DNA of 64,000 bases from Brachyspira intermedia PWS/A (GTDB lineage Bacteria > Spirochaetota > Brachyspiria > Brachyspirales > Brachyspiraceae), in NCBI RefSeq assembly GCF_000223215.1, contig NC_017243.1, forward strand, positions 2,046,001 to 2,110,000, in the 5' to 3' direction. Every line of letters starts with the position of its first letter. Position 1 is the stretch's first letter. The translations under genes and the position numbers were made by a program. The notes under the pieces are model-generated. The model made no database searches. It was not told where the DNA came from and was given only the letters and a program-made list of their open reading frames with translations. Positions 42,233 to 59,453 of this stretch are shown piece by piece.

Positions 42233-42251
42233 CAATATACAATCTTTTTTG

Positions 42252-42285: not shown

Positions 42286-42316
42286 TTTTATTAAAATTAA
42301 ATTAAAGGATTTAAAT

Positions 42317-42754: not shown

Positions 42755-42771
42755 TATCTCCAAAATATAAA

Positions 42772-42801
42772 AGCAAGTCTTTATTAATTTAAAGGCTTGC
42801 T
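42772..42801. terminator. Hairpin after fucU
   Basis: AGCAAGTCTTTA (42772-42783) pairs with TAAAGGCTTGCT (42790-42801) with one G-T pair, in the gap between convergent fucU and the gamma-glutamyltransferase-like gene. No U-run, so it is moderate support. Confidence 0.55.
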
Positions 42802-42863
42802 ATTATAAATTAAATAAAAATTCTCTACTGCTTTAATATAAAAAACAGACTTATAATTATATT

Positions 42864-44483
42864 TTAAAATGCTGCAATTCCAGAATCTGTTCTTCCATCG
42901 CATCCTGCACAATAAACATTATTATAATTATTTAGTATAACTTGTCCGCGTCCGAAATATCCGAAATTTGTAATATGAGGCTTTTTAGTAATATTATGCC
43001 CCAATGATGAAAGCTCTGAAAATAATATATCATCAAAATTATATTCTAATTCAATATTCTTCTCCCCTACCCATTGCCATCTAGGTTTATCTAATGCCGC
43101 TTGAGGATTTAAATTATGATCTATTAAATTACTCATAACCTGTAAATGTCCCTGAGGCTGCATGAAAGCTCCCATAACACCTAAAGCTGCATAAGGTTTT
43201 GAGTCCTTACATATAAATGCCGGTATTATTGTATGATAAGGCTTTTTATGTGGGGCTATAAAATTATCTGAATTAGGGTCTAGTGAAAAATTAGCTCCCC
43301 TATTTTGTAACGCTATTCCTGTTTCTGGAATAACTATACCAGAACCGAATGCACAGTAATTACTTTGTATATAAGAAACCATATTTCCTTCACTATCTGC
43401 AGTTGCTAGATACACAGTGTCGCCTGATGAGAATATATGATTTATAGGTTCTAATGCTTTATTTATTCTTATTAATGAAGCCCTTTTCATAGCATATTCT
43501 TTTGAAAGCATTTCTTCAATAGAAGTTTTCATATGATAAATATCAGCAACATATTTTTTTGTGTCTATGAATGCCAATTTTAATGCCTCTATTTTATAAT
43601 GAGTACTTTCTAATGGTGTCAAATCTTTTAAATCAAAATGAGATAGAATATTTAAAGCCATTAATACTGTAATGCCATGTCCGTTAGGAGGTATCTCATA
43701 AATATCGTATCCTCTGTAATTGGTTGTTATAGGAGTAACAAATTCAGGATAATATTCGTTTAAATCTTCTTTATATAAATATCCTCCATACTTCTTCATA
43801 AATGCATCTATCTTTTCAGAGTACTCTCCTCTATAAATACATTCTGCATTTGTGTTTCCTATATCTTCTAAAGTTTTGGCATGATATGGAAGTTTAACTA
43901 TTTCACCAAGTTCCGGAGTTCTGCCATTAAAGGTAAAGGTATCAAACCAATATCTGAACTCTTCTTTTTTTAATTTATCAGATTCTTTTAAATATGTATA
44001 ATAAGATTCTTTCCAATCGAGAGCCACTTGAGGCTGAACTGCATAACCTTCATTAGCATATCTAATAGCAGGTTCAAGTACATCTATAAGTTTTAATTTT
44101 CCGAACTTTTTTACAAGTGTTGCCCAAGTTGCTGGTATTCCTCCAACAGTTACAGGTAAAAGTCCGTAAGTAGGCATTTGATCAAGATTAAGCGATAATA
44201 TTTTATCAACATCTAAATTCTTTGGAGAAAATCCGCTTCCATTGATAGCATATAAATTATTTTCAAAATTTATTATAGCAAAAGCATCGCCTCCCAAACC
44301 GTTTGAAGTAGGCTCAACAACTGTAAGTGCAGCTGCAGTTGCAATTGCCGCATCAATAGCATTTCCTCCTTTTTTTAATATTTCAAGTCCTGCCTGAGAA
44401 GCTAATATATTGCTTGTAGAAACTATATTTTTTCCAAAAACTACATTTCTTTTAGATGGGTAAGTATTATCATAAAAATCCAT
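42864..44483 (-). CDS. Gamma-glutamyltransferase family protein (Ggt/YwrD-like)
   Basis: N-terminal nucleophile hydrolase that acts on gamma-glutamyl compounds such as glutathione. Seen: ILKKGGNAIDAAIATAAAL near residue 40, NGLGGDAFAI, and the nucleophile segment SGDTVYLATAD with Thr356 as the likely self-cleavage residue, then SYIQSNYCAFGSGI. No signal peptide is seen, so unlike E. coli Ggt it is probably cytoplasmic, as in the YwrD-like branch. Start: the second candidate, an ATG at 44483 with GGAT upstream; an in-frame TTG 12 bases earlier has no ribosome site. About 540 residues is a normal length. Its link to neighbouring genes is unclear. Confidence 0.85.
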   Translation of the reverse strand: MDFYDNTYPSKRNVVFGKNIVSTSNILASQAGLEILKKGGNAIDAAIATAAALTVVEPTSNGLGGDAFAIINFENNLYAINGSGFSPKNLDVDKILSLNLDQMPTYGLLPVTVGGIPATWATLVKKFGKLKLIDVLEPAIRYANEGYAVQPQVALDWKESYYTYLKESDKLKKEEFRYWFDTFTFNGRTPELGEIVKLPYHAKTLEDIGNTNAECIYRGEYSEKIDAFMKKYGGYLYKEDLNEYYPEFVTPITTNYRGYDIYEIPPNGHGITVLMALNILSHFDLKDLTPLESTHYKIEALKLAFIDTKKYVADIYHMKTSIEEMLSKEYAMKRASLIRINKALEPINHIFSSGDTVYLATADSEGNMVSYIQSNYCAFGSGIVIPETGIALQNRGANFSLDPNSDNFIAPHKKPYHTIIPAFICKDSKPYAALGVMGAFMQPQGHLQVMSNLIDHNLNPQAALDKPRWQWVGEKNIELEYNFDDILFSELSSLGHNITKKPHITNFGYFGRGQVILNNYNNVYCAGCDGRTDSGIAAF

Positions 44484-44513
44484 AATAAAATCCAATACTT
44501 TATTTTAAATATT

Positions 44514-44573
44514 AGACTTGCAGCAAAACTTCTTAAAAATAATGTTTTATAATATTAGCTTTACAGCAAGTCT
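44514..44573. repeat. Imperfect inverted repeat between Ggt-like and TPR genes
   Basis: AGACTTGCAGCAAAACT (44514-44530) is repeated in inverse as AGCTTTACAGCAAGTCT (44557-44573), 14 of 17 pairs, with a 26-base loop. It may end the upstream TPR transcript or be an RNA leader of the Ggt-like gene. Confidence 0.5.
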
Positions 44574-44622
44574 ATTATGTACATATTTTATTATACTAAC
44601 AAAAATATAATTGTCAAAAATT

Positions 44623-46722
44623 TTATATATTCAATTTTTCTAAACATTCTTTTGCTTCATCATCATAAATATTGATTTCTAAAATTTTTTTGTAACATTC
44701 TTTGGCATTTTCTTTATCATCAATTTTTAAATATAATTCAGCCATTTCTTTTAAAGTATCACATCTATATGGACGAGTCTCAAAATATTTTTTATCAATA
44801 TCTATAGCCTTTTTATAATATTCTTTTGACAAGTCCTTTTCATTAATATCATTATAAACTTTAGCAATTGATATATAATACTCTTCACGATTAGGTTCTA
44901 ATGAAACAGCATGTTTATAGCACTTTAATGCCTTATTTTTATTATCTATTTTCATATATAAATCGCCTATCTTTCTTGAATAATAACCTTTAAATTCTTT
45001 TCTCTCCCATATGTTTTCTCTTCTGAACATACAACTAGCACTTTTTATTTCAAGTTTTATAGCTTTTTTATATGCTTCAATAGCTTTGTTTTTATTACCT
45101 ATAGAATTATATAAATCTCCTATACTCTCTAAATCCCAATAATTTTTATCTTTTTTATTTTCATAAATCTCTATTGCTTTTTTATAATATTCTTCTGCAT
45201 TTTCCTTTTCTCCCAAGCTTTCATAAATTTCTGCAATAGATGTAAAATCATACTTATATTTTTTATTATCATCTAATAAATTTATATATTTTTGATAATA
45301 TTCAATAGCCTTATATTTTTCGCCTATATGCAGATATAACTTGGCAGCATTAATATACTTATTATTATCAATATAATAATTAAGAGCTTTATTAATAAAT
45401 AAATCTCTTTTATCCATTTCTGAAACCTGCTCATATAAATCCAATAATTTTGCCATATTACAATAAACATTTCCACTGCTTCTGCATTCAAAATTCAAAT
45501 ATTTTTCGTACATCTCTATAGCCTTATCATAATTTTTAATTTCTTGATAAATATGTCCTAAAAGAGAATAATAATAACTATCAAAATCATTAATTTCCAT
45601 AAGTTTATTACACATTTCAATAGCTTTATCATATCTATAAATCTCTTCATATAAATGAGCCAGAGTTCCATAAACTTGATGTTTAATATTATCAGTATTA
45701 TTTAGTAAATATTTCTCAAGTACATTAGCCGCTTTATCAGATATTCTCAAATCATAAGAATATATAGTTTCTAATCCATCATAATATTCAAAATTACTAG
45801 GCTCTTCATCTATAAGCTGATTAAATGCTTCTATCAAATATTTATAATCTTCAATATCTTTATTATATAGATATCTTATCCAACGCCATTCATGTTTTTT
45901 AATATATTCTTTATATGCATCAATACCTTTCTGATACTCTCCTAAAGCCATATAAGATTTAGCTAATGCATTTATTGCACTAGTATTTTCAATATAATCA
46001 CAAGAAGGATGAATTTCTAATACTTTCTCATAATTTTCTATTGCCTTATCATATTCTTTTTTCGCAAAATATGATAATCCTAAATACATAAAATCGCTTT
46101 GATCATGTCGAGGAAGTTTTATTATTTCTTTAAACACTTTTATTGCTTCATCATATTTACCCAATTTAAAATATGATTCTCCTATCACAGTAAGATAATA
46201 TTCCATATAATTACCATCATCAACAACATAACTTTTATTTAACTTAACTGCTTTTTCAGAATACTCTATTGCCGCATAATAATTTTTATTTTCCCGATTA
46301 ATATATCCTAAAAGATGCCAATATGCTGAATCATTTGCATTTAATTCTATAGCCTTTTTAATAAGTTTTAATGCTTCATTATATTTTTCATTTCCTCTAA
46401 AATTATATAGATAATTGACTGCTGTATAGTATAATGCTTTATCATCATTAGGGTTTATTAACAAAGCTTTTCTAAACTGCTTTTCTGCTTTTTTATTATC
46501 TCGATTAGAATAATATGCTCTTCCTAATAGAGTTAAAGCTTTTACATTATTTTTATCTTTTTTAATATACTCTTTTAGTACTTCTATAACTTGATCAATT
46601 ATATTTTCATTATTATCTAACTTGTCATCTGCTTCAGTTGAATCAGTTTCATCAACTTCATAAGAACACTCTTTGTTTATTATATTTTCAATTTCTTCTA
46701 AAGTGTAATTTTTATTTTGCAT
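44623..46722 (-). CDS. TPR protein, paralogue 1 of the YTLEEI group
   Basis: 699-residue protein built almost entirely of tetratricopeptide repeats, with no signal peptide or membrane helix, so a cytoplasmic scaffold is likely. It opens MQNKNYTLEEIENII, a header shared by the next three genes and not part of a TPR. The TPRs show as ALYYTAVNYLYNF, AIEYSEKAVKLNKSY, AIKVFKEIIKLPRHDQ, SYYKLGKYDEAI-type units and, late, ALKCYKHAVSLEPNREEY. Pairwise helices fit roughly 34-residue units throughout. No enzymatic domain is seen. AAGGAGAAT precedes the ATG. The partner is unknown. Confidence 0.88.
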   Translation of the reverse strand: MQNKNYTLEEIENIINKECSYEVDETDSTEADDKLDNNENIIDQVIEVLKEYIKKDKNNVKALTLLGRAYYSNRDNKKAEKQFRKALLINPNDDKALYYTAVNYLYNFRGNEKYNEALKLIKKAIELNANDSAYWHLLGYINRENKNYYAAIEYSEKAVKLNKSYVVDDGNYMEYYLTVIGESYFKLGKYDEAIKVFKEIIKLPRHDQSDFMYLGLSYFAKKEYDKAIENYEKVLEIHPSCDYIENTSAINALAKSYMALGEYQKGIDAYKEYIKKHEWRWIRYLYNKDIEDYKYLIEAFNQLIDEEPSNFEYYDGLETIYSYDLRISDKAANVLEKYLLNNTDNIKHQVYGTLAHLYEEIYRYDKAIEMCNKLMEINDFDSYYYSLLGHIYQEIKNYDKAIEMYEKYLNFECRSSGNVYCNMAKLLDLYEQVSEMDKRDLFINKALNYYIDNNKYINAAKLYLHIGEKYKAIEYYQKYINLLDDNKKYKYDFTSIAEIYESLGEKENAEEYYKKAIEIYENKKDKNYWDLESIGDLYNSIGNKNKAIEAYKKAIKLEIKSASCMFRRENIWERKEFKGYYSRKIGDLYMKIDNKNKALKCYKHAVSLEPNREEYYISIAKVYNDINEKDLSKEYYKKAIDIDKKYFETRPYRCDTLKEMAELYLKIDDKENAKECYKKILEINIYDDEAKECLEKLNI

Positions 46723-46790
46723 TTTTTATTCTCCTTAAAATTATTTTCATTCTAATAAAAAATTATTAATATTATGACAGTAAATGACAT

Positions 46791-49073
46791 CTAAATACAA
46801 AACTTTTTTAATACCATTTCTGTTTGACCATGTTGAATATATTTTCTATGAGATAGTTTAAATATATTGGCGGTTATTATTTTATTTCCTGATTGTATAT
46901 CTTTTATTTTATCTGCTGCATCATTATATTTATCTATTTCTAAAATTCTTTTATATGTTTTTAAAGCATCGTCTTCTTTATTTAATTTTATATAAAGCTC
47001 TGCAATAGATTCTAAATAAAATATACTATCCTCACTATCTGTTACTTTTTCCTCATATATTTTTATAAGCTCTTCATAGGCAAGATTAGATTCTTCATAT
47101 CTTGAAACTTTTTGATAGAATAATGCTAAATATGATAAATCTTCCATACAAAAACTTATTTTATCTTCATATTCTTCATCTGTATCTGATATTTTTGTCT
47201 TTTTAAATCTTTCTATTTTTTTGAGACAAAGCCCTATAGCTTTATTGTATATTTCAAATGCTTTTTCTTTATTATCAATTTTGACATATAAGTCACCCTG
47301 TTTTTCTAAAAGCTCATAGTCCTTTTTATTTTTTAATATTTCTTTATCATACTTTTTTATTAAATCATGATATATTTCAAATGCTTCTTCTTTGCATCCG
47401 ATTTTCATATAAATATCAGCCATTTCTTCTAAATACATTTTTTTATAAGATTTATACTTTTTTATAAGTTCTCCACATCTTTCAATAGCTTTCTCATAAT
47501 AGAGATTTCTATTTTCTATATCATTTAACTTATCATATAAATGAGCAATATTTTTTAATGTATTTAATTTAAAGCATACTGTATATAAAAATGAAACCTC
47601 ATGCTCATTATTAACTATCTTTAAATATTCCTTATATGCTTCTATTGCCTTTTCATATTTTCCAATATTTTTATAAGCTTCTGCCAATTTTTTATAATAT
47701 CTGCATGGCCCATTATAAAGTTCTATAGTCTTATTATAATAATTGGCGGCTTCTTCATAATTTTTTATCTTTTCATAAGTTTCAGCAATATTAATATAAT
47801 AGTCTGTATTTTTACTATCAGTTTCTATAGCTTTTCTATAATAATTAATTGCTTCTTCATAATTTTTTATTTTTTTATAAATATAGGCAATATTAGAATA
47901 GTAACTTGAAGCATCATCTGGATACATATTTATAAGCATTTTATATATATCTATTGACTTATAATAATTTTTAGTTTTCTCATATATTGTAGCTATATTT
48001 TCATAACTATCTTTAGATATTTTATTATATAATTCTATAGCCTTATCATATTCTTTGTATAGTTCATAGAAATATGATAATTGATGTATATAACCTTCTG
48101 CATTATACGAATTATTTTTTATAACATTAGTATATGCTTTGACTATATCATTGTAAATTTCGCTTCCTTTGAAATTTTTATATTCTTCTTTTCTATTAGG
48201 AAAAGGTATAAAATAAAATGGAATATATGAATCTTTTTCTATACTATTTTCTAATGCATATACTGCTTCATCATTTTTACCTAACTTTTTATATAAATCG
48301 TACAATGATTTTACCGTGTAAAGACTGCCGTAAAAATAATCGTCTAATCTGGTGTCTGCATTAATATACAATGCATTTTCATAACTTTTTACAGCTTCAT
48401 CATATTGATTATTTTTTTCATAACTCAATCCTAAATAATACCAAGCATCAGAAAGGTTATAGCTATAGTCAAAATTATCTATAGCCTTTTTCAAATTTTT
48501 TATAGCATCTATATTGCTTCCTACATACAAATTTATTTTTCCTAATTCATAATGATAATATTTTTTACTATTATACATTGTTTCTGTATAATTTATTTCA
48601 GCGGCTTTTTTATAACAGAATATAGATTTATCATAATCTTTTATATGATAAAAATATGTTCTACCAAGTAAGTACCAATATTCAGAATCTCTGTCATTTA
48701 ATTCTATGGCATTTTCCAGTAATTCAATAATTTTTTTAATTAATATTTTACTATTAGGTTTATTATAATAATATAATACCGCTAAATAGTATAAAACTTT
48801 ATCTTTTTCATAATCTAATCTCAAAAGTTTTTTAAATGTTTCTATTGATTTTCCTTCATCTCCACTAGAAGAGTAAATACCATACTGAACTAATCCTAAT
48901 AAAAATAATAATTCTTTATTATTAACATCATTTTTTAACTGTTTCTTTATTATTTTTTCAGATTCTTTATAACAATACTCATCATCTTCTTCAATATCTT
49001 CATTATTTATACCTTTATTTATTAAGTATTTTATTTCTTCTATTGTATAATTTTTATAATTTTTATTTTCCAT
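46791..49073 (-). CDS. TPR protein, paralogue 2 of the YTLEEI group
   Basis: 760 residues with the header KNYTIEEIKYLI and TPR units such as YYLGLSYEKNNQYDEAV, ENIATIYEKTKNYYKSI and YYINIAETYEKIKNYEEA, the last repeated with small changes near residues 380-440, so the array has partly duplicated inside the gene. Two longer helical pieces near 560-650 break the regular period. The last 30 residues are unlike the other paralogues (NIFKLSHRKYIQHGQ) and may come from a small shift or fusion at the end. No signal peptide. Same strand as, and 25 bases upstream of, the next copy in transcription order, so cotranscription is likely. Confidence 0.86.
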   Translation of the reverse strand: MENKNYKNYTIEEIKYLINKGINNEDIEEDDEYCYKESEKIIKKQLKNDVNNKELLFLLGLVQYGIYSSSGDEGKSIETFKKLLRLDYEKDKVLYYLAVLYYYNKPNSKILIKKIIELLENAIELNDRDSEYWYLLGRTYFYHIKDYDKSIFCYKKAAEINYTETMYNSKKYYHYELGKINLYVGSNIDAIKNLKKAIDNFDYSYNLSDAWYYLGLSYEKNNQYDEAVKSYENALYINADTRLDDYFYGSLYTVKSLYDLYKKLGKNDEAVYALENSIEKDSYIPFYFIPFPNRKEEYKNFKGSEIYNDIVKAYTNVIKNNSYNAEGYIHQLSYFYELYKEYDKAIELYNKISKDSYENIATIYEKTKNYYKSIDIYKMLINMYPDDASSYYSNIAYIYKKIKNYEEAINYYRKAIETDSKNTDYYINIAETYEKIKNYEEAANYYNKTIELYNGPCRYYKKLAEAYKNIGKYEKAIEAYKEYLKIVNNEHEVSFLYTVCFKLNTLKNIAHLYDKLNDIENRNLYYEKAIERCGELIKKYKSYKKMYLEEMADIYMKIGCKEEAFEIYHDLIKKYDKEILKNKKDYELLEKQGDLYVKIDNKEKAFEIYNKAIGLCLKKIERFKKTKISDTDEEYEDKISFCMEDLSYLALFYQKVSRYEESNLAYEELIKIYEEKVTDSEDSIFYLESIAELYIKLNKEDDALKTYKRILEIDKYNDAADKIKDIQSGNKIITANIFKLSHRKYIQHGQTEMVLKKFCI

Positions 49074-49097
49074 TTTTTATTCTCCATAAAAATATGA

Positions 49098-51173
49098 TTA
49101 TTGTTCTAATTTAATGCATCTAATTTTTTCTTTTGCCTCATCATTATCCGCATCTCTTTCTAAAATTTTTTCATACATTTTTAAAGCATTATCTTTTTGA
49201 TTTAATTTCATATAGAACTCTGCAACAGTTTTTAAATAGAATACATGCTCAACATCATCTGTCATTTTATCTTCATATATTTTTATAAGCTCTTCATAAA
49301 TAGGAATGTACTCATCATCTCTTGAAACTTTCTCAAACAATAAAGCTAAATTAGATAGATACCTAATATAATGAAAATCAATTTTTTTATATACATCTAA
49401 TTTTGATATATTTCTATATTCATCTATTTTCTTTGTTAATAATTCTATAGATTTATTATAATTTTCTAATGACTTTTCTTTATCATCAATTTTTAAATAT
49501 ATATCACCAAGATATTGATAAATACGATAGCATTCTCCATATTTTTTTAATTTTTCTCTAAATACTCTTATAGCTATATCATAAACCTCTAATAATTTTC
49601 CTTTCTCTCCAATTTCCAAATAAATACTTTCTATTTCTTCTAAATCTTCTTTTGTATCATATTCATCATATTCAACTTTTATAAAGCCTTTTAGTATTTC
49701 AAGATATTTTTCATAATACAAATTTCTATTTTCTATATCATTGAGTTTATTATATAAATTGGCAATATTTTTTAATACATAAAAATCATTTTTAGAAAAA
49801 TCAATATATTTTGTATAAAAGTATATAGCTTTACTATATTCATTTATATTTTCATAAAGTTCAGCAATTCTTCTGCTGCAGCCAAGATTTCCTTTTTCAA
49901 AAGACTTATTATAATAATTAATAGCCTCTTCATAGTTTTTTATTTTCTCATAAATATAGGCAATGTCAGAATAGTAACTTGAATCATCATCAGGATATAT
50001 TTTTATGATAGTTTTATATGTATCTATTGCCTTATCATAGTTTTCATCTTCTGCATACATTCTAGCTATATTTTTATAACTTTCTATAGATATTATTTTA
50101 TACAATTCTTCAGCTTTATCATACTCTTTATATGTTTTATAAAAATCAGCAAGCTCTTCTCGGCATGGCATAATATATTGCATGTTATGAAAGCTCCTTT
50201 CTTCGATTCTTAAAGTATATGCCTGAACTATATCATTATAAGCATCACTTCCTTTAAAATCTTTTTCTTCTATATCTGAAGGTATAATTTTTAAAGGATA
50301 TGATATATCGTATAAAATACTTGCTTTTAAAAATCGAATAGCTTCTCTATTTTTGCCAATCTTTTTATACAAATCATATATGGATTTTATTATATGCTCT
50401 CTATTTCTGTCAGATTCAATATCGATACAACTGTTTTGATAAATACTCCATGATTTTTTATAACTTTTTATAGCTTCATCATATTGTCCATTTTTTTCAT
50501 AGCTTAATCCTAAATAATGTATATAATTAGCTTCTTCATCACGGGATATTGAATATTTAAAATATTCTGATTCTCTAAAATCTTTTATAGTTTTTTGAAA
50601 AATTTCTATTGCATCATCATAGTTTCCTAAATATAAATTCACTTTTCCCAATGTGTAATAATATTTTTCTTTATGATTTTTTATTATTTCACTATGATTT
50701 ATTTCATAAGCCTTTTTATAATAGTATAGAGCTTTATTATAATCTTTATTAGTGTATAAATTTATGCCTCCCAACAAGTACCAATACTCAGAATCATTAT
50801 TATTTAATTCAATAGCATTTTCTATTAATTTGCATATCTCTTCTATATTGATTTTAGCAGAAAAATGAAACATACTTGAATCTTCATAATATAACGAAGC
50901 AAGATAATACATAACTTTATCTTTTTGATAATTTACATCTAAAAGTCTTGCAAATATTTTTTCTGCTTCTTCTATATAATTTCTGTCATATTCCATTAAT
51001 CCTAACATAAATAATAATTCTTTATTATCAGGATCATTTTCTGAATATTCTTTTAATGCCTTATATGCATCTATTTCATAATAAACTGTATCAGCATCAT
51101 TATAAATGATATCATTATTTATTTTTCTATTTATTAAGTCTTTGATTTCTTCTAAAGTATATATTTTTTTCAT
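49098..51173 (-). CDS. TPR protein, paralogue 3 of the YTLEEI group
   Basis: 691 residues; header MKKIYTLEEIKDLINRKI. It is the closest relative of paralogue 2: both share YPDD-SSYYS-IAY blocks, IENRNLYYEKYLE-type units and the late YEELIKIYEDKMTDD segment, so they arose by tandem duplication. TPR units run from about residue 50 to the end. The C-terminus ends DADNDEAKEKIRCIKLEQ, as expected for the group (compare the odd tail of paralogue 2). No signal peptide, membrane helix or catalytic motif. It is 56 bases downstream of paralogue 4 in transcription order. Confidence 0.87.
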   Translation of the reverse strand: MKKIYTLEEIKDLINRKINNDIIYNDADTVYYEIDAYKALKEYSENDPDNKELLFMLGLMEYDRNYIEEAEKIFARLLDVNYQKDKVMYYLASLYYEDSSMFHFSAKINIEEICKLIENAIELNNNDSEYWYLLGGINLYTNKDYNKALYYYKKAYEINHSEIIKNHKEKYYYTLGKVNLYLGNYDDAIEIFQKTIKDFRESEYFKYSISRDEEANYIHYLGLSYEKNGQYDEAIKSYKKSWSIYQNSCIDIESDRNREHIIKSIYDLYKKIGKNREAIRFLKASILYDISYPLKIIPSDIEEKDFKGSDAYNDIVQAYTLRIEERSFHNMQYIMPCREELADFYKTYKEYDKAEELYKIISIESYKNIARMYAEDENYDKAIDTYKTIIKIYPDDDSSYYSDIAYIYEKIKNYEEAINYYNKSFEKGNLGCSRRIAELYENINEYSKAIYFYTKYIDFSKNDFYVLKNIANLYNKLNDIENRNLYYEKYLEILKGFIKVEYDEYDTKEDLEEIESIYLEIGEKGKLLEVYDIAIRVFREKLKKYGECYRIYQYLGDIYLKIDDKEKSLENYNKSIELLTKKIDEYRNISKLDVYKKIDFHYIRYLSNLALLFEKVSRDDEYIPIYEELIKIYEDKMTDDVEHVFYLKTVAEFYMKLNQKDNALKMYEKILERDADNDEAKEKIRCIKLEQ

Positions 51174-51229
51174 AGTATAGCTCCTATATTTTATTTATTA
51201 AGCTTGAAATAGATAATACAAAATAAATT

Positions 51230-52954
51230 TTACTTATTGAAAAATTTATTTGCTTCATGATCATTAGGGTTTAATATTAAAACTCTTTTATATATATCTC
51301 CTACAGCTTTCATTCTTTTTTCTAAATCTATTTCTATATTATTTTCATTTTCTAAAAATGATTTTGCTAATTTTCTTAAACGTTTAATATATTTAGGATC
51401 TTCAGCAAAACGTTTTTTAAGAAGTTCTGTATATTTGTTATAGTATTCTTTTGCTTTGTCAGGCTGATTTATTTTCTTATAAATTTCTGAAATTGTTTCT
51501 AAGACATATATATCTTCTGGATTTTCTATATAATATTTTTCATAATATGATAAAGACTTCTCATCTTCATCAATTTTAGCATATAAATCGGCAGTCTCTT
51601 CAAGATAATATTCTATACTCTCTTTTTTATAAAGTTCTATTATCTTTGAAATTAAAATATCTCTCTCTTCAAATCTTGATAATTTATTAAACACATATAT
51701 AATTCCCTCATAACAACGTATAATATTTTCATCATCTAAATGTATAGCTTTATTATAATATTCTAATGCCTCATTAAATTTATTCATTTTATAACAATAT
51801 ATATCAGCTATATTCAGAAAAATTCTGTTATTATTATTATCAGCATCCATTATGTTTACAGCTTTAATATAATATTCAATAGCTTTATCGTACTGTTTTG
51901 TTCTATAATATAAAAAGCCTAGATCATAATAAAAATCATAATCAAAACTATTATTTTTCTTAATACAATCTTCACATACTTCTATAGCTTTATTCAAATC
52001 AAAAATAAATTCATACACACCTGATAACCCTTCATAATAAACTATTTTATGAGGTTCTTCTTCGATAAGCTCATTATACGCTTTAATACAATACTCATAA
52101 TTATCAATTTCTTTGAATCCTGTAGTAAATTTGAAAAACCTATATGCTATAGATGTATCTTCTTTTATATATTTTTTATATAACTCTACAGGCTTTCTAT
52201 ATTCTTTTATTTTTGTATAGACAAGAATCAAAGAATCAAAAGCAGAATGCATACAATGAAAATATGACTTATTATTTCTTTCTAATATTTCATTGAAGCA
52301 TTTTATTGAATTATCATATTCTTCATTTTCTAAATAAGCTTCTCCCAATACACATAAAGTTTCATCATTATTATAGATACTAATCAATCTTTTAAGGAAA
52401 TCTACAGCATATTTATGTTTTTTTAATTTTAAACATGTTTTTAATATTAAATTAACTCCATAAGATAAAACTTCTGATGAAATAGATGTATTATTAATAT
52501 TTGAAGCCTTTTGATAATTATAAAATGCATCATTATGTTTACTCATACGAGTATAAATGAAGCCTAATATATAAAAATAGATATAGTCATTATCATTTAT
52601 TCCTATAGCTTTTTTAATATTTATTAATGCCTTTTTATGTTCACCTATACAGTAATAAGAATATGATAAATAAAACCAATTTTTATCATCATAAGCATCT
52701 AATTTAACAACTCTCTTTAATATTCTAATAGCTTCTTCTGACTGATAAATACTATTATATACCTTAGCAAGAAGAAGCATTAACTTTATATTTTGACTAT
52801 CTTTTTTTAAGTATTCTTCTAGTATTTTTGCTATATATTTTTTCTCATCTAAAATTTGTATTATATCTTCATTTTCATCTTTATTTTTATTAACTCCTCT
52901 TTCATTTTCATCAATAATTTTTTCAATTTCTTCTAAAGTGTATGATTTTTTCAT
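51230..52954 (-). CDS. TPR protein, paralogue 4 of the YTLEEI group
   Basis: 574 residues; header MKKSYTLEEIEKIID followed by TPR units such as FYLSYSYYCIGEHKKAL, GFIYTRMSKHNDAF, LGFLYYRTKQYDKAIEYY and IADIYCYKMNKFNEALEYY. It is the shortest and most divergent of the four but has the same all-TPR layout and no signal peptide. It is first in transcription order, so a promoter for the set is expected in the duplicated region upstream. The first 12 codons and the DNA before them are copied at 53135-53282. Function unknown. Confidence 0.87.
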   Translation of the reverse strand: MKKSYTLEEIEKIIDENERGVNKNKDENEDIIQILDEKKYIAKILEEYLKKDSQNIKLMLLLAKVYNSIYQSEEAIRILKRVVKLDAYDDKNWFYLSYSYYCIGEHKKALINIKKAIGINDNDYIYFYILGFIYTRMSKHNDAFYNYQKASNINNTSISSEVLSYGVNLILKTCLKLKKHKYAVDFLKRLISIYNNDETLCVLGEAYLENEEYDNSIKCFNEILERNNKSYFHCMHSAFDSLILVYTKIKEYRKPVELYKKYIKEDTSIAYRFFKFTTGFKEIDNYEYCIKAYNELIEEEPHKIVYYEGLSGVYEFIFDLNKAIEVCEDCIKKNNSFDYDFYYDLGFLYYRTKQYDKAIEYYIKAVNIMDADNNNNRIFLNIADIYCYKMNKFNEALEYYNKAIHLDDENIIRCYEGIIYVFNKLSRFEERDILISKIIELYKKESIEYYLEETADLYAKIDEDEKSLSYYEKYYIENPEDIYVLETISEIYKKINQPDKAKEYYNKYTELLKKRFAEDPKYIKRLRKLAKSFLENENNIEIDLEKRMKAVGDIYKRVLILNPNDHEANKFFNK

Positions 52955-53068
52955 AGTGTAGCTCCTATATTTTTATTATTTTTAATTATATAGAGGTACA
53001 AAAAACGGCTTTCAAGGGAGGTTTTTAAATAATAAATCAGTATAAATGATTACAGCTTATATAAAAAT
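52921..53068. repeat. Direct duplication, copy 1
   Basis: This 148-base segment covers the first codons of TPR paralogue 4, its ribosome site and the DNA upstream (TAGCTCCTATATTTTTATTA, TAGAGGTACAAAAAACGGCT, AGGGAGGTTTTTAAATAATA). It is copied at 53135-53282 with about ten differences. It ends with the last codons of the 53264-type gene. Confidence 0.75.
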
Positions 53069-53168
53069 ATCTTATAGCCTTTTAAATATCTTTCTAATTT
53101 TCTTTTATATATTTTTTTAATACATAAAGATATTTTTCAATTTCTTCTAAAGTGTATGATTTTTTCAT
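53050..53168 (-). pseudogene. Chimeric gene remnant: TPR header joined to the end of the 53264-type gene
   Basis: An ATG at 53168 starts MKKSYTLEEIEK, identical to TPR paralogue 4, and switches directly to YLYVLKKYIKEN and a stop; the second part matches ALYVLKEYIKEN of the neighbouring 389-residue protein. After the stop, RKLERYLKGYKIFLYKL still matches the last residues of that protein (DKLIERYYKGDKRFLYKL). So this is a fusion left by deletion between two duplicated units, not a working gene. Confidence 0.7.
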
Positions 53169-53282
53169 AGTATAGCTCCTGTATTTTTATTATTTTTTAA
53201 TTGTATAGAGGTACAAAAAACGGCTTCACGGGAGGTTTTTAAATAATAAATAAGTATAAATAATTACAGCTTATATAAAAAT
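53135..53282. repeat. Direct duplication, copy 2
   Basis: Second copy of the 148-base segment, 214 bases from the first. It runs from the remnant's first codons into the end of the 53264 gene. With copy 1 it accounts for the whole 309-base gap between TPR paralogue 4 and the 53264 gene. Confidence 0.75.
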
Positions 53283-54433
53283 CTCTTATCACCTTTATAA
53301 TATCTTTCTATAAGTTTATCCCTGTCTAAATGTCTTGTATAATTCATAATATATCTTAAAGCCAAATCAATATACTCTTTGGAATTATCTTTGTAATTTT
53401 CTTTGATATATTCTTTTAATACATAAAGGGCTTTATTAGGAGCAAATCTATGATTAGGACTGTAACCCAAAATATAATCATATAATAGTTTGTCGCATTT
53501 CTCTTTTATATCATCATTTATAGAATTATTAACTTCTTCCCTGTCTTTCATCAGCTTTTTATAAAAATGCTCAAATAATTCATTGTATCCTGTTATAAAA
53601 AATGGAAATGAAAATAAATCTCTATTTTCAAAATAATAATCAATATCTTCTTCATCATATATAATATAAGTTTTCATACAGTCATCATCATCTGTGATAT
53701 TGTATTTATCCAATTCTCTTTGGTATTCTTCTTCCCAATGTTTATCAAGCCTTTCGTCAAAATACTTCATTGCTTCATTTTTATTTTCGCTTCCCCATTC
53801 CATATACCATCTTCTTGAATCAACTTCCCCACTTTCAAAAAACTCATCAACTAATTCTTTAGTTTCAAAATATATAACTCCATTTTTCCTATATTTTTCA
53901 GAAATCATCTCTTCTTTAGCATATTTTTTATCATCTTCTTTTTCTATAAAATCTCTGTACTCGCCATCATCATATTCATAATGCCAAGAAGGAATTAATA
54001 GTTCATAGCCTCCAATAAAATTATTTTCTTCACTAGGCTCTGAATATACATGCAATTCTGAAAACTCATCATCTAGTATAGGAAATTTATCATTATGATA
54101 CTCTTCATAAATATCTGGAAATTTATCCTTTTCTAATAAACATTTATATTCACCCCAATCCAATAAATCTTTCTGAGTTTCTGGGTCTGGATGCACAAAC
54201 TGTTCAAAGTTAATTCTTATTAAATATTTTTCTAATACTCTTATAAAAGTATATACTGAACAATTATGATGATCATTTATTATGAGTTTATCTTCTTCTT
54301 TTATTTCTATATTATTTTTCTTTATAAGTTTATCAAGTTCTTCTAAAAAATAATTTAATGAATGTTTAGTAGAATAGTAATCGTTTTTATCTTGTATAAT
54401 ATATTTTTTATTTTGTCTGTTTAATTCTTCCAT
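53264..54433 (-). CDS. Acidic hypothetical protein
   Basis: Not recognised. The 389-residue protein is very rich in Asp, Glu, Lys and Tyr, with no signal peptide or membrane helix. Visible features: FLEELDKLIKKNNIEIKEE near residue 30, IPSWHYEYDDGEYRDF near 150, RRWYMEWGSENKNEAM near 205, a CMKTYIIYDEED segment near 255, and a helical C-terminus with YVLKEYIKENYKDNSKEY. No known catalytic pattern. A ruined second copy of its end lies just downstream, so it belonged to a duplicated unit together with the TPR genes. AAGGAT precedes the ATG at a slightly long spacing. Confidence 0.7.
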   Translation of the reverse strand: MEELNRQNKKYIIQDKNDYYSTKHSLNYFLEELDKLIKKNNIEIKEEDKLIINDHHNCSVYTFIRVLEKYLIRINFEQFVHPDPETQKDLLDWGEYKCLLEKDKFPDIYEEYHNDKFPILDDEFSELHVYSEPSEENNFIGGYELLIPSWHYEYDDGEYRDFIEKEDDKKYAKEEMISEKYRKNGVIYFETKELVDEFFESGEVDSRRWYMEWGSENKNEAMKYFDERLDKHWEEEYQRELDKYNITDDDDCMKTYIIYDEEDIDYYFENRDLFSFPFFITGYNELFEHFYKKLMKDREEVNNSINDDIKEKCDKLLYDYILGYSPNHRFAPNKALYVLKEYIKENYKDNSKEYIDLALRYIMNYTRHLDRDKLIERYYKGDKRFLYKL

Positions 54434-54480
54434 AAGATTATATCCTTTTAAATTTTTAATTTAATTATAATCTGTAGGTA

Positions 54481-54486
54481 TGACAA
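54481..54486 (-). promoter_or_regulatory. Candidate half operator / -35 of the 53264 gene
   Basis: Minus strand TTGTCATA, the same half-site as the palindrome at 54568, stands 17 bases before TAAATT. Weak promoter, but the shared half-site suggests shared control. Confidence 0.3.
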
Positions 54487-54567
54487 ATTTTGACGCTTTT
54501 TTGAATATAAATTTAATAGAAGAATTTTTTTTAATTTTTTTATCACTTTTTTATAAAAGCAAAATTA

Positions 54568-54607
54568 TATGACAATTTTTGTCATAGTAATATGCTATGT
54601 TAATAAT
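54568..54607 (+). promoter_or_regulatory. Palindromic operator overlapping the promoter of the zinc-finger-like gene
   Basis: TATGACAA-TTT-TTGTCATA (54568-54586) is a perfect 8-bp palindrome. Its right arm contains TTGTCA (54579-54584), which with a 17-base spacer and AATAAT (54602-54607) makes a promoter 33 bases before the ATG. A protein bound here would block the -35. Confidence 0.5.
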
Positions 54608-54640
54608 CATAAAATAAATATTAAATACAGGAGGCTTTAT

Positions 54641-54895
54641 ATGGCTCAAAATTTTTACTGCGAATACTGCGGAACAATATATTCTTCAATAGGTGCTCTT
54701 ACAGGAGGAGCTTGTATCAAACATCCAGATGGCCCAAATAAAGGAAAGCATAAACTATATGAAGGCGGAGAAAAATCAGATTATTTCTGTAAATATTGCG
54801 GAAATAAGTATCATACAATAGCTTCATTAACAAATGGACATTGTATTAAACATCCAAATGGTCCTAACAAAGGGTATCATTCACCAGCTTTATAA
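54641..54895 (+). CDS. Small protein with two tandem CxxC...CxxH zinc-finger-like repeats
   Basis: 84 residues, made of two near-identical 40-residue units. Unit 1: FYCEYCGTIYSSIGALTGG then ACIKHPDGPNKGKH. Unit 2: YFCKYCGNKYHTIASLTNG then HCIKHPNGPNKGYH. Each has C-x2-C, about 14 residues, C-x2-H, which suits one zinc ion per unit. The start is the ATG after AGGAGGC; an upstream in-frame ATG would cut through the palindromic operator. No signal peptide. Nucleic-acid or protein binding is likely but unproven. It is a single-gene unit ending at a hairpin. Confidence 0.85.
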   Translation: MAQNFYCEYCGTIYSSIGALTGGACIKHPDGPNKGKHKLYEGGEKSDYFCKYCGNKYHTIASLTNGHCIKHPNGPNKGYHSPAL

Positions 54896-54914
54896 ACAAA
54901 TTATTTTTTATTTT

Positions 54915-54944
54915 TGTGCATAGTAATTGATTTTATTATGCACA
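54915..54944 (+). terminator. Terminator after the zinc-finger-like gene
   Basis: TGTGCATA (54915-54922) pairs with TATGCACA (54937-54944), followed by TGTTTTATTT. Confidence 0.6.
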
Positions 54945-55016
54945 TGTTTTATTTATCAATAAAGTAAAAACTCCTGAAAATATGGCTGCAAAAATAATAG
55001 ATATAATTAATGCCAT
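54936..55016 (-). CDS. Possible 26-residue hydrophobic peptide
   Basis: On the minus strand an ATG opens MALIISIIFAAIFSGVF and the frame ends LLINKTCA. Nearly the whole peptide would be one membrane helix. There is no clear ribosome site, so this is weak; it could be chance in A+T-rich DNA or a small membrane peptide of the type seen in type I toxin genes. Its end overlaps the hairpin of the opposite gene. Confidence 0.25.
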   Translation of the reverse strand: MALIISIIFAAIFSGVFTLLINKTCA

Positions 55017-55050
55017 ATCTAATGAATTTAATAAATAAAATTAAGTAATA

Positions 55051-55089
55051 TTAAAGTGCTTGATTACGGCTTTTAATCAGGCACTTTAA
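55051..55089 (-). terminator. Terminator after the Pr6Pr gene
   Basis: TTAAAGTGCTTGATTA (55051-55066) pairs with TAATCAGGCACTTTAA (55074-55089), with one mispair, just beyond the stop of the membrane-protein gene. Confidence 0.65.
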
Positions 55090-55092
55090 AAA

Positions 55093-55734
55093 TTATTTAT
55101 TATGTTTACTAAACAGCTTATTAAAAAATCTGTCAATAAAATATTCTATATAACCCAATAAAGCAAAAAATAAAGTTATAAAAAATACATTTCTTAATAC
55201 CGTTTTAAGTCCATATTTATTTATATCAACAAAAAAGTAAGGATAATAACTTCCATCAGAAAAAGGACTTCCTATTCTAGCCCTTATAAGTATAAAAGCA
55301 AAATATACAAATGGAATTATAAGCCAAAGCAGAGGATCAATTATTTTATAAATTCCTTTCTTATCAAAAATTATATAATCAAAAATAGTCATAATTGGAA
55401 CTATATAATGAACTATTAAATTTCTTATATATGACAAACCTTCATATTTATCAGCTGTAGGACTTAATAAAAAATGATATACTAAAAATGTAACAGTTAT
55501 TGACATTGTAACTGCACCTTTAAATCTTGGATAAAATGTTTCTTTTTTATTTATAATAGTAAAAATATCCAAAATAAAATAAACTATTACAAGTATATTA
55601 CTTTGATATGTAAAATAATATGCAGTTTCTATATCAAGCTTAAAATTATCATAGAAAAATCCATGAAGCACTGCAAAAGTACCAATTATAATAATTATTA
55701 TTTTGTATATTATAGAAAAATTAGTTCTTGTCAT
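55093..55734 (-). CDS. Pr6Pr family six-helix membrane protein
   Basis: 213-residue integral membrane protein with six predicted helices, matching the Pr6Pr (FAR-17a/AIG1-like) family. Seen: YFTYQSNILVIVYFILDIF near residue 40, the conserved RNLIVHYIVPIMTIFDYIIF near 105, LLWLIIPFVYFAFILIRA and YPYFFVDINKYG near 165, which are the family hallmarks. AIG1-type relatives include serine or threonine hydrolases of lipids in eukaryotes; bacterial members are uncharacterised. The hydrolase gene starts 20 bases upstream in the same direction, so cotranscription is likely. No signal peptide is cleaved. Confidence 0.85.
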   Translation of the reverse strand: MTRTNFSIIYKIIIIIIGTFAVLHGFFYDNFKLDIETAYYFTYQSNILVIVYFILDIFTIINKKETFYPRFKGAVTMSITVTFLVYHFLLSPTADKYEGLSYIRNLIVHYIVPIMTIFDYIIFDKKGIYKIIDPLLWLIIPFVYFAFILIRARIGSPFSDGSYYPYFFVDINKYGLKTVLRNVFFITLFFALLGYIEYFIDRFFNKLFSKHNK

Positions 55735-55754
55735 CTTAATTCCAATAAATATAA

Positions 55755-56696
55755 TTATTTCAAAAATTTATAGCAAATATTTATTATCAATTCTTTATTA
55801 ATTAAAATATCAATCCAATTAGTTGGAATATTGTCTATACTATAATATAAACCAGCAAGCCCTCCAGTAACTGCCGCAGTAGTATCAGTATCATTTCCCA
55901 GATTAACTGCTTTTAATACCGCGTCCTTATAATTTGAAGTATTTAATAATACCCATATAGAAGCCTCTAATGTATGTACAACATATCCGCTACTTTCTAT
56001 TTTTGTATCATTTAGTTTTTTAAAATTAGAGTCAAATATTCTTTTGTAATTATTAATCTCTTTTTCATTTTTATAATAATTGAAAGAGTCTTTTAATGCT
56101 TTATTAATAGCTTCTTCAATATTCATGTCATTTATTAAATTCAATGCTATTGCAGTATATATTACACAAGCTATCAAACTTCTTTTATGAGAATGAGTTA
56201 ATGAAGAAATATTATATATTATATTTATAACTTCACTATTATCAAATAATTTACCATAAAAATATTTATTTATATAAAATGCAATAGGAAGTATCCTCAT
56301 AAGAGAACCATTTCCATTACTATATTCATCAGAAAGTCCGCATTTTATAGGATTTTTTTCGCTTTTATAATTATTTATAGCATCACTTGTAGTTATTCCA
56401 ATATCAAATGTATGTCCGTCAGCAGTATAATAGCCTTTATCATACCACATAGCAAAACTATTCATAATATCATTATAATTTATATTTTTATTATTCAAAT
56501 TATCAAGTAAACATAATGTTAAACTTGTATCATCAGACCAAGTACCTGGCTTTTTATTATGAGTACCGTATCCAATCATATCTTTACAAGGATCTTTTTT
56601 AATAATATTTCTTGTTATAAATTCATAAGGAACACCTAAAGCATCTCCAATGGCAAGTCCTAATATTGCAGATTTTAACTTATTTTCTAAACTCAT
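55755..56696 (-). CDS. ADP-ribosylglycohydrolase family protein (DraG-like)
   Basis: 313-residue hydrolase that removes ADP-ribose from proteins or small molecules, with two magnesium ions. Seen: GLAIGDALGVPYEF near residue 14, WSDDTSLTLCLLDNL near 55 (the TDDT-type metal site), NGNGSLMRILPIAF near 130, and LGNDTDTTAAVTGGLAGLYYS near 270 (the second metal site). Length is typical. The substrate cannot be told. It is upstream of and probably cotranscribed with the Pr6Pr membrane protein. No ADP-ribosyltransferase gene is nearby, so it is not an obvious DraT/DraG pair. Confidence 0.93.
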   Translation of the reverse strand: MSLENKLKSAILGLAIGDALGVPYEFITRNIIKKDPCKDMIGYGTHNKKPGTWSDDTSLTLCLLDNLNNKNINYNDIMNSFAMWYDKGYYTADGHTFDIGITTSDAINNYKSEKNPIKCGLSDEYSNGNGSLMRILPIAFYINKYFYGKLFDNSEVINIIYNISSLTHSHKRSLIACVIYTAIALNLINDMNIEEAINKALKDSFNYYKNEKEINNYKRIFDSNFKKLNDTKIESSGYVVHTLEASIWVLLNTSNYKDAVLKAVNLGNDTDTTAAVTGGLAGLYYSIDNIPTNWIDILINKELIINICYKFLK

Positions 56697-56792
56697 ATAA
56701 AATTAAACCTAGCATCAAATATAGTAAATTAATAATTATAATAAATATACTAAAACTATCAATAGATTAAATAAAAAATATATAATAAAAAA

Positions 56793-56817
56793 GCGTATCT
56801 AAAAATATTAGATACGC
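56793..56817 (-). terminator. Intrinsic terminator of the FMN-binding protein gene
   Basis: Minus strand GCGTATCTAA pairs with TTAGATACGC around a five-base loop and is followed by six T. Confidence 0.8.
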
Positions 56818-56846
56818 CAGGGTTAGTGAATTTCTTATTAATTTAA

Positions 56847-57203
56847 TTACTTAGCAGGAGTTAATTTAGTTAAAGCATCTTCTACTAATGCAACCCAAGT
56901 AGCACCGCTTACGCCGTCAACATAAATGTTGTTAGCTTTGATCATTTTGTCATAAGCAGCTTTTCCTCTTGCAGGACCACTGCTGTGTCCACATTTTGTT
57001 AACACAACTTTTGTTAATTTACCGCCAGCAACAGTAACTTTAGCTTGATAGTCGCCTTGTCTTGTTTTATAAGTAGCTTTGTAATTTCCTAAATATGTAC
57101 CGTCAGGTATTTTAGCCAAGTCAATTTTTCCTTGAGCAAATAGGAATAAGCTAGCTGCAAAAAGAACAGTAACTACCAAAAATAAAACTTTTTTAAGACT
57201 CAT
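56847..57203 (-). CDS. Secreted FMN-binding domain protein (covalent flavin type)
   Basis: 118 residues. Residues 1-23 are a signal peptide (KKVLFLVVTVLFAASLFLFA). The rest is one FMN-binding domain: IPDGTYLGNYKATYKT, VTVAGGKLTKVVL, and the flavinylation site DGVSGAT with Thr102, which ApbE-type enzymes load with FMN by a phosphoester bond. It would act outside the inner membrane as a flavin carrier, e.g. in extracellular electron transfer or fumarate-type reduction; the partner is unknown. GAGG-like AAAAAGGGG precedes the ATG. No apbE or reductase is adjacent. Confidence 0.88.
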   Translation of the reverse strand: MSLKKVLFLVVTVLFAASLFLFAQGKIDLAKIPDGTYLGNYKATYKTRQGDYQAKVTVAGGKLTKVVLTKCGHSSGPARGKAAYDKMIKANNIYVDGVSGATWVALVEDALTKLTPAK

Positions 57204-57278
57204 ACATTTCCCCTTTTTAATATAGTTGTCTATTAAAACTACATAAGTAAGAAAAAGTAAAAAGTTTGTAAAACTAAT

Positions 57279-57689
57279 TTAACATTTTTTTATATTTCCA
57301 TTTCTAAGCAGTCCCAATAAGTTATTATATTCTACAGTTGTCTTTATTTGGCAGTATCTATCATCTACAAAGCTAGAATATTCCACTTTTATATATTTTT
57401 CTACTATATTTTTTAACTCATCATTTTCATATTTTTTATTTGGAAGTTCTTTGGCAAAGGCATTTTCTATTTTTACTTTTGATAAGGCTAATGCGGCATT
57501 AAAAGCACTTGTTTCAATTTCATCTTTAGTTACAGCATAACCATTAGGATATCCTATAGAAGTAGCTATAAATTTATTCTCATTAACCCAGCCTTCATTA
57601 AAATTTATATTATTATTGACAGTTTTTTCAGCGGATTTGCATGATACAAGTAAAGCAAAAATAATTATAATTATATAGCCGTATTTCAT
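57279..57689 (-). CDS. Small lipoprotein with LPP20-like core
   Basis: 136 residues after choosing the ATG with GGAGGAT immediately upstream; the frame is open 75 bases further but without a site. The signal sequence ends LLVS-C (Cys17), so it is a lipoprotein. The mature part has FIATSIGYPNGYAV and SAFNAALALSKVKIENAF, resembling the LPP20/FlgO-like alpha-beta fold, followed by RYCQIKTTVEYNNLLGLL. Function unknown. It is divergent from the beta-propeller-like gene, and a promoter for both must lie in the 147-base gap. Confidence 0.75.
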   Translation of the reverse strand: MKYGYIIIIIFALLVSCKSAEKTVNNNINFNEGWVNENKFIATSIGYPNGYAVTKDEIETSAFNAALALSKVKIENAFAKELPNKKYENDELKNIVEKYIKVEYSSFVDDRYCQIKTTVEYNNLLGLLRNGNIKKC

Positions 57690-57836
57690 ATATCCTCCAA
57701 ATTTAAAATAACTCTCCCAAATATTCGTCAAAATTTTATTTTTTTTAAGCACATAATTATACATAATTATTAATTTTAGAGTATAATAGTTCCGAATATA
57801 TAGAAAAATATATAAATATTAGCAGCGGGAATTATT

Positions 57837-59453
57837 ATGAAAAAGTTATACATTATATCTATAGTATTTCTTTTATTATGTGCAAGAGGTTTTACTCAAA
57901 TATACACATTTCAAATCGGAGAAAAACTAAATAACTCATATATTTTATCAGAAAGCAATTATGCAATTATAATAGAAAAAAATAATGCTAATTCTGGAAA
58001 AACTTTTGATATAATATATAAAGATGCCAGATTAACAGGTTATAAAGATGCAGGCAGTATAAAAATACTTCCTAATGGTACTTTAGTTGCCACTATGCTA
58101 AAAACTTCTCTTGGTAAAGATATGTGGGTTTTAATATATGGAAATGTTGAACAAGAATTTGACTCTATAGAGAGAGAAATTTACTCAGGAAACAATTCTA
58201 TAATATTTACTAGATTAATGAATTATGGAATAGCTGTTATAAATGGAGAAGCTAAAGTACAGTATTCTGAATTATATGACAGTGTTATTAATGATAATTC
58301 TTATGCTTTCTCTTATTCAAGAGACGGACAATATTTTGTTAATATTAATGGTGAAGAAAAACAAGTATCAGCTAAAGCGGACAGACTCAAATTCTCAAAT
58401 GACGGAAATAATATAGTATATGTTATAGAAAATGAAGGAAATGCTGTTATATTTACAGGAAGTACTGACAGTGAAGGTTTTAGATTAGTGGATGATTTAG
58501 CTTCATTCAACAATAACAGTATAGCTTATGCTGTAAAAGCTATACCGGGAATGGATACTAATTCAACAAATATGATTAGTTCAAATGATTCTATGTCAAA
58601 TACTTTCATTACAAATAATATGACTAATGAAGTTATAACAAATACAACAACAATAACAAATTATAATCTTTCAAATATCAGTGTATATACAAATGAAGAA
58701 GGTGTAACAGTAAAAGGACAATCAAATACTATAGCTTTAATGGTTGTAACAAATGTAATAACAAATATAAGATATAATGAATTAACAGATCTTCCTGCTG
58801 CTGCCGTTTCTACAAATTCAATTATAAGCAATGAATTTATTATGACTAGTGTTATAGCTAATGGAAGAAATTATGGAGAATTTAATTTAGTAACTAATAT
58901 GTCATTCTCTCCTGATGGTAAAACATTAGTATTTGTAAATATTAATAGTAATAACACTATGCAGCTATATGTTGGCGGTAATATGACTACTAATTATGAT
59001 ATGATACATAATTATAAATATTCAGACGACAGTAAAATATTAGCCTACTCTGCACAAACAAATAATGTATCATTCTTAGTAGTTAATGGTAAAAGACTTC
59101 CTAGAACTTTTGATAAAATAAATGATATATATTTCTCTACAAATAATAGCTTAGTTTATAATGCTTCTATGAATGAAAGAGAATATATAATAGCAAATGA
59201 CTTTGAAAGCCCTTCCTATAACAAAATAACTTCATTCAAGTTTGTAGGAGATTCATTTGCATTCACAGCAGAAAGACTTGGAAAACATTATTACTTTATA
59301 TTAAATAAAAACAACTCTGTAAGAAGAGAATTCGGCGGATATGATTATGTGTCAGCTATGGATAATAATCAAGAAGATGCTTTATCAATAGTATCTGACG
59401 GAAAGAACATTTTTATAATAAAAAATGGCGTAATAGTAAATAATCAACAATAG
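57837..59453 (+). CDS. Secreted beta-propeller-like protein with Asn/Thr-rich insert
   Basis: 538 residues with a signal peptide (LYIISIVFLLLCARGF). The mature part has repeated WD40/TolB-like strands: LKFSNDGNNIVYVIEN near residue 183, MSFSPDGKTLVFVNIN near 355, YKYSDDSKILAYSAQT near 395, and a late IVSDGKNIFIIKNG. They fit a propeller of several blades. Between blades, near residues 235-310, lies a low-complexity Asn/Thr/Ile-rich stretch (NTFITNNMTNEVITNTTT) that looks disordered and surface-exposed. The ATG follows GGGA. Function unknown, probably a periplasmic binding protein. Confidence 0.75.
   Translation: MKKLYIISIVFLLLCARGFTQIYTFQIGEKLNNSYILSESNYAIIIEKNNANSGKTFDIIYKDARLTGYKDAGSIKILPNGTLVATMLKTSLGKDMWVLIYGNVEQEFDSIEREIYSGNNSIIFTRLMNYGIAVINGEAKVQYSELYDSVINDNSYAFSYSRDGQYFVNINGEEKQVSAKADRLKFSNDGNNIVYVIENEGNAVIFTGSTDSEGFRLVDDLASFNNNSIAYAVKAIPGMDTNSTNMISSNDSMSNTFITNNMTNEVITNTTTITNYNLSNISVYTNEEGVTVKGQSNTIALMVVTNVITNIRYNELTDLPAAAVSTNSIISNEFIMTSVIANGRNYGEFNLVTNMSFSPDGKTLVFVNINSNNTMQLYVGGNMTTNYDMIHNYKYSDDSKILAYSAQTNNVSFLVVNGKRLPRTFDKINDIYFSTNNSLVYNASMNEREYIIANDFESPSYNKITSFKFVGDSFAFTAERLGKHYYFILNKNNSVRREFGGYDYVSAMDNNQEDALSIVSDGKNIFIIKNGVIVNNQQ

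Follow-up and report, generated by a model that had tools for sequence, protein, structure and literature searches.

A chimeric gene remnant within a doubled acidic-TPR gene junction of Brachyspira intermedia

Gene layout at the locus

The DNA considered here, called the window throughout, is a stretch of 64,000 nucleotides from the gut spirochaete Brachyspira intermedia PWS/A. The genome of this strain (G000) comprises 3.31 Mb in two contigs, of which the window-bearing contig has 3,304,788 bp. On the minus strand, a gene for an acidic protein of 389 amino acids (aa) is followed by TPR genes of 574, 691, 760 and 699 aa, and a doubled stretch of DNA sits between the acidic gene and the 574-aa TPR gene. 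The features are listed below in minus-strand order, with the basis of each assignment in brackets.

53264..54433, minus strand: intact acidic gene, 389 aa, source (by its 3' end) of the remnant (ORF)
53396..53428, minus strand: acidic-gene segment that matches the first block of the remnant (gapped alignment)
53311..53395, minus strand: 85 bp of the acidic gene, the counterpart of which is deleted from the remnant, with a 2-bp TA overlap at the deletion ends (gapped alignment)
53133..53310, minus strand: copy B, made up of the acidic gene's final 47 nt, a 95-nt spacer and 12 TPR-start codons (53133-53168) (BLAST, 92.7% identity to copy A)
53094..53168, minus strand: chimeric remnant ORF of 24 codons, MKKSYTLEEIEK-Y-LYVLKKYIKEN-stop (sequence; both halves placed by alignment)
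53050..53129, minus strand: acidic-gene tail remnant, 33 nt and 47 nt with 85 bp missing in between (gapped alignment)
52919..53096, minus strand: copy A, with the second block of the remnant tail, the spacer and the first 12 codons of the intact 574-aa TPR gene (BLAST)
51230..52954, minus strand: TPR gene, 574 aa, downstream of copy A (ORF and TPR families)
49098-51173, minus strand: TPR gene, 691 aa (ORF and TPR families)
46791-49073, minus strand: TPR gene, 760 aa, TPR760 (ORF and TPR families)
44623..46722, minus strand: TPR gene, 699 aa, TPR699 (its ortholog directly follows the acidic gene in seven relatives)

Both parents of the chimeric joint are therefore complete, as the acidic ORF (53264-54433) and the TPR ORF (51230-52954) show. 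Window positions 54641-54892 encode an 84-aa protein with two CxxC...H repeats, which has no NCBIfam match and a best PHROG match at E 3e-4, where no function is assigned; a related 84-aa ORF adjoins the acidic gene in four of eight relatives' loci. Farther along the window, ORFs at 14380-16767, 16851-19265 and 19593-22169 match the same ORFs of locus L015 at 51-67% identity, and these window ORFs look like tandem paralogs. At a second site in the same genome (L110, G000:C2 354000-362000), two genes related to the 760-aa TPR gene stand in tandem, at 62-63% identity.

The doubled junction

Comparison of the window with itself (BLAST, dust off) identifies a repeat of 178 bp in direct orientation, 52919-53096 (copy A) against 53133-53310 (copy B). 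The alignment spans 179 columns with 92.7% identity, 11 mismatches and 2 gaps (E = 1e-70), and the copies are offset by 214 bp from start to start. The original prediction had described a 148-bp direct duplication; the duplication, and with it the double occurrence of the surrounding DNA, is borne out, and the length needs correction to the values given here. Nine of 26 Brachyspira genomes, the comparison set used throughout (one genome per species), match the junction at 89% or more along almost the entire 178 bp, and two such matches occur solely in the window's genome. Copy B has single-copy counterparts in the eight other genomes at 89-96% identity. Within its own genome, the repeat has six matches at E up to 0.01 among the best 32 of 171 candidates: two full, two partial at the TPR starts of this cluster, and two short and weak. 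A dispersed or mobile repeat element of REP or MITE type was considered and rejected, since these 32 candidates do not include many copies at unrelated places.

The remnant and its internal deletion

A minus-strand ATG at 53168 opens the reading frame MKKSYTLEEIEK, which continues through a single Y into LYVLKKYIKEN and a stop codon. The MKKSYTLEEIEK codons are nucleotide-identical to the first 12 codons of the TPR gene at 51230-52954. Gapped alignment identifies the rest as the last ~165 nt of the acidic gene minus one internal deletion of 85 bp: 53097-53129 corresponds to 53396-53428, and 53050-53096 corresponds to 53264-53310, up to the stop codon. Comparison of the window with itself by BLAST gives an additional 46-nt match between 53084-53129 and 53383-53428 (91%). 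Past the 85-bp deletion, the remnant leaves the frame of the acidic gene. An in-frame fusion of this kind has about one-in-three odds of arising anyway.

The junction of a TPR-paralogue start with the end of the acidic gene had been proposed from the sequence, together with the caution that the resemblance might be a chance match of a few residues. Alignment of both halves confirms the junction, and chance is rejected by the scores. The first block scores 34, against a maximum of 20 in 1000 dinucleotide shuffles and a best of 20 elsewhere in the window; the second block scores 36, against 22 and 18, respectively. The whole remnant, compared with shuffles alone, scores 58.3 against a maximum of 29.5 in 1000 dinucleotide shuffles.

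The 75-bp joint is present whole solely in the window's genome among the 26 genomes (35 candidates scored per genome), and its two halves occur apart in the other eight carriers of the junction. Remaining matches to it, in 22 of the 26 genomes, are short or weak, and viral_contigs contains no exact match for it. Near the point where the 85-bp deletion of the remnant begins, the acidic gene tail has a 12-nt in-frame repeat (KDNS/KDNY, codons ~347-353), which is present in one or two copies depending on the species.

The acidic gene and TPR699 across Brachyspira

The acidic gene occurs in nine of the 26 Brachyspira genomes with one gene in each, including a single match in the window's own genome; a second match in G006 overlaps the first and is the 5' end read in another frame. 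The TPR699 ortholog (44623-46722) is present in the same nine genomes at 76-100% identity. Among the other 17 genomes, only G007 has a TPR699 match at E up to 1e-80, with 45% identity. Seven of the nine carriers have the order acidic gene, spacer and TPR699 ortholog with a single junction; the exceptions are the window and G017 (L012, L107 and L108). Some of these pairs are not intact: the TPR start codon of B. innocens (L014) is other than ATG, the TPR gene of G79 (L016) is interrupted, and the acidic gene of B. hampsonii 30446 (L017, G006) is frameshifted near its start. The 574-aa TPR gene has at most 37% identity to other Brachyspira genomes among the matches listed (E up to 1e-30), and its first 18-20 codons are also present in G017.

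Occurrence in the same nine genomes supports the acidic gene and the TPR gene as a linked pair. Because all 26 genomes have both genes or neither, apart from scars, the distribution also suggests that the acidic protein and TPR699 may work together as a functional pair. Searches of NCBIfam, PADLOC and PHROGs give no match for the acidic protein itself, and in Pfam no family reaches the curated cut-off; the one Pfam hit, to DUF2623, lies below threshold (E 0.4; 11.3 bits, where the cut-off is 25.7). The best match of its profile to solved structures has E 0.18, which is not meaningful, and its AlphaFold model has a mean pLDDT of 52.3 and is too poor for a fold search. Plasmids contain no match at E up to 1e-3.

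The acidic profile was run over 296 genomes of the phylum, sampled from a larger group, and matches 11 of them: nine with full genes, all Brachyspira, G005 with a fragment and G055 with a weak hit. No complete acidic gene was found outside Brachyspira in this set. The G055 protein, from another family of the phylum (L125, G055:C20, 1289-2395), has 368 aa and matches acidic positions 82-196 only. In a five-protein comparison, it has 29% identity to the acidic protein over 127 columns (E 3e-4), and a distant shared domain is possible. No title among the matches listed for the literature on Brachyspira concerns this locus, and the main text of PMC3163572 has no word beginning with TPR.

Other scars and remodelling at the locus

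The window is not alone in bearing a scar at this spot. In G017 (Brachyspira sp. MAG cluster1_bin.18; L108 and L107), the acidic gene and one spacer are followed by an 18-codon start of the 574 type that runs into TPR760 sequence, and a second contig contains the TPR760 tail and TPR699. This arrangement implies that at least part of the same TPR array stood behind a single junction. The two contig ends have the apparent ends of an insertion element and a likely short target duplication and, judged from these two ends, an insertion element looks to have split the G017 locus. The G017 scar resembles that of the window in its location and in a chimeric fragment that opens with the same TPR start. 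It differs in that a deletion within the array brought the TPR start up against the tail of a later TPR gene, and the junction is not doubled.

In G005 (L119, about 200-1005), a fragment of the acidic gene runs into the 3' end of TPR699 through a short stretch common to both, and a decayed acidic start lies next to it. As in the window, acidic and TPR pieces are fused at the same locus. The order in G005 is acidic then TPR, unlike that of the window, so deletion alone explains it and duplication is absent. These fused pieces indicate that the pair was lost by deletion, at least in G005.

The flanking 213-aa and 543-aa genes are separated by 10.6 kb in the window. In six of the 17 pair-less genomes (G004, G005, G007, G009, G023 and G025), they share a contig and have 0.6-2.7 kb between them. 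Stretches were compared in eight of these 17 genomes (the same six together with G020 and G024). G004 retains the region upstream of the acidic gene together with the first ~50 bases of that gene, and also matches the TPR699 end over a short length; G020 retains a short 3' end of TPR699; and G007 has a complete distant TPR gene at the locus. Matches in G025, G023, G009 and G024 are short, weak or outside the pair, and are not counted as scars.

Divergence of the two copies

Alignment of the two copies had been proposed as a means of dating the event. Copies A and B differ at 15 of 212 aligned positions, of which 8 look changed in A, 6 in B and 1 is undecided (the 212 columns leave out the 85-bp deletion and a TAT at the joint). 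With changes on both copies, the duplication is not recent on the scale of these species. The same differences make an assembly duplicate unlikely. Within the spacer and start (135 columns), A and B have 6 mismatches and 2 indels; A differs from L011 by 3 mismatches and 1 indel, and B differs from it by 5 and 1, respectively. L011 and L018 are identical in this part, and the acidic gene differs from that of L011 by about 3%. A tree of both copies and eight relatives does not make A and B sisters when all 212 columns are used; when restricted to the spacer and start, it does so with weak support (76/35).

Origin of the remnant

A TPR start placed before an acidic tail reverses the gene order, and it lies between complete parents; a tandem duplication is therefore required, and deletion within a single pair cannot produce the joint. 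Tandem duplications with short junctions followed by later deletion are a known kind of event in bacterial chromosomes. They likewise have direct repeats, a novel joint between the end and start of the unit, intact parents on both sides and a small overlap at the deletion ends. The present case stands apart by its age and by its very small unit of about 0.3 kb, and so does not resemble selected gene amplification.

The remnant is moderately likely to be a non-functional scar of an old, short tandem duplication. The stretch copied in tandem would have measured about 296 bp, beginning at acidic codon ~336, crossing the 95-bp spacer and ending at codon 12 of the TPR gene that follows; before the internal deletion, the copied source would have extended from about 53428 to 53133. 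The acidic gene would have stayed intact upstream and the TPR gene intact downstream, with a TPR start running into an acidic tail in between. A deletion of 85 bp with a 2-bp overlap would then have shortened the acidic part of the second copy, after which copies A and B would both have drifted. We infer a single short step and this order of events, and "short" rests on parsimony because the same sequence would result from a long duplication and a later deletion.

Further observations count against this account. The 3-nt TAT at the joint matches neither the 574-type TPR start nor the acidic gene, and it would fit a 699-type start given one extra A. Moreover, trees do not group copies A and B with support. 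In addition, copy B shares a derived base with G017 at two spacer sites (at one of them also with L016), and copy A has neither, which fits poorly with a copying of B later than the divergence of the window and G017 lineages.

The original prediction envisaged a larger history, in which a whole acidic-TPR unit was duplicated and a deletion then removed what lay between TPR codon 12 in the first unit and the acidic tail in the second. This would yield the same product, large deletions that fuse gene parts occur here in G017 and G005, and the TPR genes are themselves a tandem set of related genes. It is also the longer explanation, in that it needs a larger duplication and a deletion of at least 1 kb besides that of 85 bp, and none of the nine carriers has a second acidic gene. 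Repeats that flank the acidic gene are all at most 53 nt long with at most 88% identity (six hits, E up to 0.1); the best direct-repeat pair between 54434-58000 and 42000-53168 is 41 nt at 80% (E 8e-4), and no long direct repeat able to duplicate all of the acidic gene was found flanking it. A broader repeat scan listed 20 of 54 families. No intact intermediate was found in the 26 Brachyspira genomes, each of which represents one species. A whole-unit origin thus seems rather unlikely. What endures of the prediction is that both duplication and deletion took place, as the novel joint and the 85 bp lost inside the remnant attest, and that the acidic and TPR genes are a linked pair. A deletion between whole units is not needed to make the joint, for which a duplication of ~296 bp suffices, and repetition of whole genes finds no support in the single acidic gene of every carrier.

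Recombination with incoming DNA is a further candidate. An acidic tail, spacer and TPR array from another lineage would have joined a single acidic-TPR699 junction and thereby doubled it, with the gene-transfer agent VSH-1, which carries 7.5-kb fragments (PMC3163572), as a possible carrier. In both the window and G017, a 574-type start follows the acidic gene and TPR760 precedes TPR699. G022 has neither feature, yet DNA identity of the flanking 543-aa gene to that of the window is 85.6% in G017 and 96.1% in G022. The pair is also closer between species than its flank: in G017 the acidic gene has 93.4% and TPR699 89.1% identity against 85.6% for the flank, and in B. hampsonii the corresponding values are 93.1%, 89.7% and 83.8%. 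The distance between A and B is about equal to that from other species' copies. Against this origin, copy A is unlike the G017 junction, copy B is not closest to that of G022, and the two derived sites point in the opposite direction; trees of the copies fail to resolve, and parts of the G017 array differ by 5-11% from those of the window, so no recent transfer is seen between these two. Such an incoming array is improbable as the source of the remnant. More generally, the spacer sites shared by B and G017, and the closer similarity of the pair's genes across species than of the flank, leave room for recombination between lineages.

There is also a slim chance that the conserved TPR start motif YTLEEIE acts as a recombination point, through which entire TPR genes enter and leave downstream of a common spacer and start. 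In G000 and G017, the spacer and first 11-12 codons precede a 574-type gene, and in seven other genomes they precede TPR699; TPR699 of G000 and G017 begins with MQNKN rather than MKKS just before the same motif. If true, the locus would be a site of slow cassette exchange beside the acidic gene, and the present remnant would be a by-product.

Function of the remnant and spacer

The remnant is probably functionless, and none of the other 25 Brachyspira genomes contains its 24-codon joined ORF whole. The doubled spacer could instead have been kept as a working part that controls how the TPR array is expressed, either as a second promoter or through a short leader ORF. All nine carriers share a conserved spacer, interrupted in two of them by a 10-bp gap, and the TPR691 start holds a 55-nt piece of it at 89%. 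Such a role is nevertheless very improbable, given that promoter-like sites number 5 compared to 5.2 in shuffles and that the other eight carriers manage with a single copy. RNA folding is no better than in shuffles (z 0.55 and 0.50) and there is no terminator-like site, so a structured RNA or terminator in the spacer has no support.

Implications

The remnant alone is one more scar of tandem duplication and decay, and as such is ordinary. It is useful mainly because related species bear different scars at the same spot. As judged from sequence comparison, the locus is a conserved acidic-TPR pair that repeatedly gains TPR genes and loses pieces; the pair, found in the same nine of 26 Brachyspira genomes and not seen complete beyond the genus among 296 genomes of the phylum, occupies a spot that has been repeatedly expanded and eroded. 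The linkage of the acidic gene with TPR699 hints at a function that the acidic protein, otherwise an orphan, may share with its TPR partner.
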